From: Gavia stellata
Lineage: Eukaryota; Chordata; Aves; Gaviiformes; Gaviidae
Length of the DNA stretch: 64,000 nt
Assembly: GCF_030936135.1 (NCBI RefSeq)
Contig: NC_082604.1
Span: 4,223,001-4,287,000, forward strand
Reading direction: 5' to 3'
In this document: piece after piece, positions 55,701 through 58,700 of the stretch
Numbering within the stretch: position 1 is the stretch's first letter
Layout of the letters: each line of letters begins with the position of its first letter
Notes under the pieces: generated by a model
Databases searched by the model: none
What the model saw: the letters and a program-made list of their open reading frames with translations, nothing else
What the model was told of the DNA's origin: nothing
Made by a program: the position numbers and the translations under genes

Positions 55701-58700
55701 GGAAAGGGCTTAAAATAGTAGAGAAATCCCGTGTATGGCTATGATAGTCAGACAGTAACTGAATCCAATGTCAGCACTTCTTATAACCAAGCTCTGGCAG
55801 AAAATGCTGCACCCTAAAGAAAAATGGTGACTTTAGTGGAAAGTGAGTTTGTGGCAGTGAACCTTTATCGCCAAGGGCCAGCACCTGAACCCGAAGAAAC
55901 ACTGCTTTAGCTTCATTTTGGATCTGCAGCTTCTCTTCAGGCTTAGTTTAAAAACATTTCCACATCTTACTAAAGATTATGTGCAGGTTTGCTTTAGAAA
56001 CATCCTTCATTTACATCTTACTGATAGTATCACTTTAGCTTCCATTTTTTATATAAATAGACATTTGCACAACTGAGGCATCAACACTGAACCAAGAGAA
56101 TATCCTACAGTCTTCTTTTCAGTGGCTTGATTACAGTTTCAAGCTTGAAGAACCCATTCAGTATTAACATTAGACTTCTGTATGTGGCAGTCTGCGTGGG
56201 TATTTAGTATTACTGGAAGTCTTGGCTTCACCAAGCCAAGCAGTTCTTCACTTTATTTAGCGTTTTATTATTTCGTGAGAACTATGCAGGTGTTTTATTT
56301 CTGAAGGCTTTATATTTTATTCAGTTAGATTATTAAAGACTGAATTCTTTATTTGGAATGCAATTGTTGTCTTACACAGTGCGTATAAAAAGGAATAACT
56401 GATACACATCGTCACCATATAAAAATGAAAAGAATACCAGTGCAAAATGCGGCAGACAAATACATCTCTAACATATTGCAGAGGCGGATACTGGGACAAT
56501 ACTAATTCAGAAAGGTGCCAGCAAAACGGTGAGAATGTGGAAACAAAAGAAAATACTGTGTTTATGTGGTGCAGGAAGTTTCCCAGAATCTGACAGAACC
56601 CATGCATTTCTGCACCCAGAATACACTTAGAGAACAGTCTAATCATGGCAATAGGTACTACAGAAAATGGTATATTGTGTATAAACCTGGCCTCTCTAAT
56701 CGCCTCCTTATGTGCCTGGAACATCTTGACGTTGTTCATGTTGGACTGCCAGTATTTCACATATCCCCCGTGGTCTGCTGTCAGCATCCACATATCATTG
56801 TGTGACCAAGTCATAGCCCTTACAGGGCTGTCGTGAGCCTGTAAATTCAGAAACAAAACTTCTAGCAAACATGTTCAAACACTGTCTGACCCACACAAAC
56901 ACCAAAGTTAGTAAAGTTCCTACTTAACAGCTGCAACAAAGAAATGAAAACAATGATGATCTAGTTAGAGTCCAGGTGTTATTGTGGAAAAAAATAATCC
57001 CTTACTTTGTATACAATGGTCTCCTAACTAATAAATGAAGAGTATTTGCATTTTGTTTCCAAAGTGTTTCTTTATTATTACAAATACTCATAGTATGTTC
57101 TTGAGAACAGTTAGTATAGCATACGGAGATGAAATGAGAAGCATTAAATGAATTGCCTATAGCCACAGTTTAACATGGGGTCAGAACAGAATAAAAAAAA
57201 TAAAAGACCTCTAAGGCTCCCATTACTGCACTTAGACCACAGACCCGTAATGAGCAGGGTGAAGATGTGTTCCTAAAATATGCTCTGAAACCTCAAGGAA
57301 AAACACAGAAATCTTGATAGATGAATTTACCTGCAATATTGTTTCAAAATTGAAAGTCAGTCCATTCCATAAAGTGAACTCTCCACTAGATGCACCAGTG
57401 ACCAAGCGTCTCCCCTCAGGAGTCCACTGCAAAAGAAAAATTTAACTAAACTGTGCAAATATAACACTCAAATATTTCTTCACAATCCTCCAAATAAATC
57501 GTAAGCTTCTTCCAGGAAATCTGCAGAACTGGAATTTACTAAATGACTTTCTAGAGGATGTAAGATAGACAAAAATGCAGAACTGTGCCAGAGGGCTTTT
57601 GACTTTTGAAACAACAGGACAAAGCCCACCGTAAAAGCAATAAAAAAAAAAATCTAGTCATAAAGGAGAAACAGCTTACTGGCACCAATACATTTCCAGC
57701 ACACAATATCCGTACTAAACAATACTGCTGACGTCACCGAAAGGTTGTGAAAAGATGCTACAAGAGTCAAACAGCACAGAGACCGAATTGCCTTTTTTTT
57801 TTCTGTGAGTCAAGATATAGTAGCCCCCCCAAATGAAAAAAAAAAATATGGAAGTATGGGAAGTGCACCTCAAACTCTGAGAGTAAGAATGATTTTGTAC
57901 TCAGAACTTACCATTAAATTTCCTAAAACCCTCCACAGAAAGACTAGACACAGAAGTAGTCCATATATTCCACATTCTAGTTTTATTTGGAAATGCTGTA
58001 ACTGTTATCTTGGTTGTTTCTTCAGTTAAGAATATCACCCTAATTTAAATTAAGACAATACAACTAAGTAAATCCAACACTATACTCACCCTGACAACAA
58101 ACACTGGGCATTTTACTTTATTAGTAGATGTCCGAACAAATTTTGTTGTTACAGCATTCATAGGGTTGTTCAGCATTCCTATAGGAGGGACCAACTATGA
58201 GAGAAGAAACAAAAGATTTAGTAACAACATTTCTAACCAGAAACTGCAAGAAAAGCTTATATTCTGAACACCTATTTCTGGAAAAGCAAGTTTTTCATTT
58301 GCAGGGATATTATCAGAAGTCAGTCAGTAGAAATCTTCAAAAGTCTGCATGATTTACTATCTCAAACATCCAGAACCAGCATCTTCAAGAGCAGCTTTGC
58401 AAGCTCAGGGCATTATGAGAGTTCTTGGGTCCAAAAATTAAAAGCCTATCCAATTTCAGATTCTCTTCGTGGACATGGATTCCAAAAGAGTAAGATAATG
58501 TAGGGTGAAGATACCCCTCCTATCTTTAAGGCCTCTTATGGACAAAAAAGATAACCTCCGCTGACAGGCAGAATCCTTCCCATTTTCTGGACAAATTTTA
58601 TCCACAGGGATATTCCCTTCATCAGGGAATAGAAAGATGTTACTTACATCATTATAATATCCTGCATCAGGCTGGATTGCTCGCATATCTCGCTGGTCTC

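Follow-up and report, generated by a model that had tools for sequence, protein, structure and literature searches.

The WDR33 locus of Gavia stellata raises the question of whether a gene encoding a 3'-processing factor also yields, by polyadenylation within one of its introns, a short membrane protein. A reading of the locus made from its letters beforehand (here called the sequence-only reading) had named a human short isoform resident in the ER membrane and partnered with STING, and this isoform is indeed in print as V2, an intronic polyadenylation product with a tail of 118 amino acids encoded by intron 6 (Liu and Manley 2024, through PMC11445923). V2 is reported to be an ER membrane protein interacting with STING, and its tail to be a transmembrane domain required for the ER location; the same paper describes V2 as suppressing disulphide-linked STING oligomers and favouring STING-induced autophagy, and the V2 and V3 mRNAs as going up on dsRNA and down on dsDNA stimulation (PMC11445923). 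In human macrophages, an intronic-polyadenylation form of WDR33 is described as increasing with M1 polarisation (PMC10286830). No bird form of the short isoform was found among the matches listed for the open-licence literature. The kind of isoform is already known from human, and the locus presented here would be a bird-type member.

The DNA analysed (the window) is a 64-kb stretch of a 1.32-Gb genome, in which the WDR33 gene lies on the minus strand; all positions of the gene given below are read on that strand. A bird as the source agrees with a CR1-tail-like motif that was seen in 3 of 26 loci, none of its occurrences being in the window. Coding exons 1 to 4 occupy 60796-60593, 58716-58648, 58194-58090 and 57426-57331, respectively. 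Exon 5 (56838-56687) encodes residues 159-208 and the first two bases of codon 209, and is the last exon common with full-length WDR33; exon 6 (54916-54819), taken as human exon 7, is used once intron 5, which is 1,770 nt long, has been spliced. Residues 1-413 of the spliced product align over their full length with the solved WDR33 chain 8r8r_B, presumably the human one, a single difference being visible in the printed alignment, and the residues of exon 5 are identical to WDR33 structure chains. The exons beyond exon 6 were located using a human sequence as bait and their borders were checked by eye. In all, 19 coding donors were located in the gene, the exons between 15 and 16 excepted and the 5'UTR donor lying outside the window. 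It should be noted that the join between exons 15 and 16, as placed, is out of frame (21111-15972) and that at least one further exon probably lies between them.

To compare these 19 donors, a simple PWM built from splice-site frequencies was applied. The 5' splice site of exon 5 (56681..56689, CAG/GTTTAT, the slash marking the exon border) received a score of -2.0, the minimum of the set, the next lowest being 1.7 and the exon 17 donor, for instance, reaching 6.3. The sequence-only reading had indeed singled out GTTTAT as the weakest donor of the gene. In human, intron 6 is described as being spliced inefficiently on the basis of Cas13 targeting, in which two of the three guides reduced WDR33 mRNA (PMC11445923). 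Inefficient splicing is a measured property of the human gene; for intron 5 of the window it would be expected from the donor sequence, the weakest of 19.

Reading of exon 5 into intron 5 gives a tail of 123 codons, one split and 122 intronic, and a product of 331 amino acids. The open tail (56317..56688) begins with the split codon 209 and ends at a TAA at 56319-56317; these coordinates, the donor and the stop all reproduce the earlier description. After the remaining 18 donors, between 0 and 63 intronic codons are open, compared to the 122 found after exon 5. At least 122 open codons follow 29 of the 31,838 sense positions of WDR33 introns 1-14, a count from which the tail itself and all introns past exon 15 were omitted. 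Markov chains of order 1-4, each run 60,000 times, produced at least 122 open codons with a probability of 0.00025-0.0006, and shuffles of the tail were still open in the given frame in 21 of 20,000 cases when dinucleotides were preserved and in 14 of 20,000 when only mononucleotides were. The three sense frames of the tail contain 0, 7 and 8 stop triplets, a distribution for which (2/3)^15 gives 0.0023. The open frame is beyond chance for a pre-specified intron 5, and on the evidence of shuffles, intron positions and Markov chains the earlier assertion that such a tail is improbable by chance is right in that sense. By itself the length is evidence of moderate strength, unless human V2 is taken to have specified the intron beforehand, because 6,847 of the 400,040 codon starts (1.7%) in 200 kb of the genome are equally open (a count over every frame of both strands that takes in exons and GC-rich DNA) and because 19 donors were open to notice; it becomes strong evidence only because the human work had already singled out that intron and that frame.

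The end of the tail coincides with a cluster of poly(A) signals. The sequence-only reading had placed the stop codon inside the first of four AATAAA in 70 bp; this arrangement was reproduced (56321-56316), and a fifth hexamer was found upstream at 56353-56348. The five AATAAA, numbered here in the direction of transcription, lie within 102 nt, and four of them within 70 nt (56321-56252). No. 1 (56348..56353) is within the tail frame and has a TGTA 23 nt upstream, no. 2 (56316..56321) overlaps the stop codon, no. 3 lies at 56294..56299, and nos. 4 (56264..56269) and 5 (56252..56257) have in common a downstream GU-rich stretch, TGCTTGGCTTGGTGA, which lies 10-24 nt after no. 5 and, with 12 of 15 bases G or T, is the best downstream of the cluster. 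When intron 5 was shuffled 2,000 times with dinucleotides preserved, the 111-nt stretch concerned never contained five or more AATAAA, and only one of the 2,000 shuffles had four of them within 70 nt at any place in the intron. Four AATAAA in 70 nt have no second instance on either strand of the window, and a single one in the 200-kb background when both strands are read. The AATAAA cluster is beyond chance.

Cleavage usually takes place 10-30 nt downstream of the hexamer. It would be expected mainly after nos. 4 and 5, because both share the GU-rich stretch. A cut at the usual distance past no. 1 would lie ahead of the stop codon or within it, and the resulting message would therefore lack an encoded stop, like the intronic form of su(f) in flies mentioned in PMC3708835. 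The layout of no. 1 is similar to that of human PAS0, which is described with a UGUA about 20 nt upstream (PMC11445923). Likewise, an AATAAA in exon 6 (54900-54895), with a TGTA 24 nt upstream, is placed as human PAS3 in exon 7, where the UGUA is again about 20 nt upstream (PMC11445923). This exonic hexamer is weak evidence, because the amino acids fix most of it and exon 3 has another (58122). As a separate observation, RNA of the region 56330-56200 folds better than shuffles (z -2.8, with 1 of 200 as good): the loop of a single hairpin holds nos. 4 and 5, and directly after this hairpin (56283-56221 for the whole) most of the GU-rich stretch is contained in a perfect 8-bp hairpin (56221..56240). 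Assignment of the region to a known RNA family was rejected, the window having no Rfam match at gathering score.

These features were compared with human V2 by gene anatomy, not by the letters of the tail. Human V2, which the sequence-only reading had put at about 326 residues, is taken by us to be 326 residues long, and subtraction of its 118-residue tail from this assumed length leads to residue 208, the end of exon 5 of the window. Intron 5 is human intron 6 provided that the human gene starts with one non-coding exon and that 326 - 118 marks the branch residue. Both forms then come from the same gene and, by exon order, the same intron; they branch after residue 208, provided the human length of 326 holds, and their tails, of 123 residues here and 118 in human, end at an in-frame stop in the intron. 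A weak donor here may have its counterpart in inefficient splicing in human, and several hexamers are found in both: A[A/U]UAAA sequences are present in intron 5 and in the next exon of the window, and the human gene is described as having multiple A[A/U]UAAA, with PASs in intron 6, exon 7 and intron 7 (PMC11445923). Apart from the species, the difference is that the stop codon of the window sits inside the hexamer cluster.

Taken together, these results make it probable, at roughly 80%, that the exon 5-intron 5 region serves as the composite terminal exon of a short WDR33 mRNA and that this mRNA is the orthologue of human WDR33 V2; a short isoform made by intronic polyadenylation explains the locus best. 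According to this reading, the weak 5' splice site would delay the removal of intron 5 (human intron 6) from the pre-mRNA enough for CPSF, with WDR33 and CPSF30, to recognise one of the clustered AAUAAA in competition with slow splicing. Cleavage at the cluster would retain the start of the intron and give a short message, from which a 331-residue protein would be made, consisting of 208 WDR33 residues (the N-terminal part and the first WD40 blades) followed by the 123-residue hydrophobic tail. By analogy with human, we infer that the tail is homologous to the human one, that it is used in RNA, and that it anchors the protein in the ER and acts on STING; the ER location and the STING binding in particular would be transferred from human. 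The earlier proposal that this species makes a V2-like product agrees with the anatomy, the open frame, the cluster and the branch position, while the support that it drew from hydrophobicity proved weak.

Regarding this last point, the tail has a mean hydrophobicity (GRAVY) of 0.62, with one 19-residue window up to 1.72 on the Kyte-Doolittle scale. Its mean is equalled or exceeded in only 2 of 139 long open stretches (1.4%) of a mixed genome background, and its best Kyte-Doolittle and Hessa windows are matched by 15% and 14% of these 139 stretches, respectively. Shuffles of the tail's own bases gave a GRAVY of 0.56 +/- 0.23, 39% of 3,000 reaching 0.62 or more, the two other frames of the tail DNA gave 0.61 and 0.61, and simulated open intron frames attained the hydrophobicity of the tail in 7-17% of cases. 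Hydrophobicity was therefore rejected as independent evidence: little weight attaches to the hydrophobic tail, since its T-rich bases yield the same values in shuffles and in the other frames. The hydrophobic stretches claimed from the sequence do exist, but they are ordinary for such a composition. The tail is hydrophobic but has no strong single segment; no 19-residue window of the tail had a summed transfer energy below 0, the best value being +3.0 on the Hessa scale.

The tail showed no 3-base periodicity (p 0.76), in a test of low power, because single WDR33 exons range from 0.02 to 0.88; all six of six overlapping 366-nt pieces of the true WDR33 coding sequence gave p values of 0.04-0.09. 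Single-sequence AlphaFold predicted low-confidence helices for the tail, with a mean pLDDT of 64.5 and a pTM of 0.35. Hydrophobicity, modelled fold and periodicity do not decide for or against a membrane protein. A protein is favoured by the open frame, and made less certain by the absence of periodicity. A single N-glycosylation sequon, NLT at residues 328-330 (56320-56328), lies near the end of the tail and would be usable only with the C-terminus in the ER lumen.

Searches for relatives of the tail returned no Pfam family at E <= 1, no relative in the viral and genome contig collections, and no match of tail peptides by text search of the open-licence literature. In the genome, its own locus was the sole match among the candidates scored, the DNA aligning at 100% as two pieces on either side of an unaligned middle and the protein at 99%. 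An origin of the tail from a transposon or repeat was rejected on these grounds, the own locus being the only match among those candidates and no Pfam family being detected. For the protein encoded by exon 5, no relatives were found in genome contigs, viral contigs and plasmids.

Could the locus be a neutral coincidence, in which a weakly spliced intron holds cryptic poly(A) signals and a chance open frame and gives only rare degraded transcripts? The frequency of equally open codon starts in the 200-kb background and the number of donors available to notice are in line with this, and hydrophobicity typical of the composition together with the lack of periodicity fits non-coding DNA. Nevertheless, the coincidence would need a weak donor, an open frame, a stop inside the cluster and the cluster itself all to fall in the intron that by exon order acts in this way in human, and we regard it as very improbable. 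More weight, although still well short of the preferred reading, is given to a feedback poly(A) site, in which the AAUAAA cluster and the weak donor would sense the level of 3' processing and attenuate full-length WDR33, the reading frame being a functionless by-product. The precedent is CstF-77 (CSTF3), likewise a 3'-processing-factor gene, which is described as having a conserved intronic site downstream of a weak 5' splice site, as being under feedback control and as giving very little protein (PMC3708835). WDR33 itself binds the AAUAAA hexamer (PMC11445923), a weak donor and a hexamer cluster are both found at intron 5, so that the likeness to CstF-77 extends to the signals, and a tail lacking 3-base periodicity would suit a by-product. 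On the other hand, a by-product requires no long open frame, and the tail is open at odds of about 1 in 1,000 in an intron of 1,770 nt; the CstF-77 intron, by contrast, makes up nearly half of its gene and the short mRNA yields very little protein at most (PMC3708835). Moreover, the human equivalent is reported to yield a functional protein, and V2 in HeLa cells fell with knockdown of CFIm25, not of FIP1 or CstF64, WDR33 not being among these three factors described (PMC11445923). A feedback role could hold alongside a protein function or instead of it, as the analogy with CstF-77 suggests.

A switch of membrane state by the same kind of competition is known from immunoglobulin mu, the classic case of a composite terminal exon, named in PMC3708835, in which splicing versus intronic polyadenylation changes the C-terminus between secreted and membrane forms; in WDR33, unlike mu, the hydrophobic tail would belong to the intronic form, whereas splicing gives the RNA-processing factor. 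It is also conceivable, if doubtful, that in this lineage the isoform is real and membrane-bound, yet does not act on STING. Binding to STING is known from human alone, which leaves space for this alternative, but exons of the STING ligand-binding domain are present in the genome: three pieces above the Pfam cut-off for this domain lie together (C16:21273170-21275477), and in each of them one stop was read through, as exon borders would lead one to expect.

Returning to the short isoform orthologous to V2, a bolder version of it, which we consider unlikely, would give the terminal exon two jobs: the AAUAAA cluster would sense CPSF/WDR33 activity and limit full-length WDR33, and the message so produced would encode the membrane regulator of STING, 3' processing and innate immunity having been joined in one switch since before the bird/mammal split. 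Birds and mammals diverged about 300 million years ago. If the tail is homologous to the human one, a dual-function arrangement that we found described only for human cells would have been kept for that time, and the membrane isoform would be selected, not a by-product. The locus also offers a second species for testing whether WDR33 governs its own intronic signals. Open frames with STING-like sequence were also observed at L023 (421-750 and 1504-1962, minus strand), and the tail of one of them has an LNLQIS stretch, which we take to resemble the pLxIS signalling motif.
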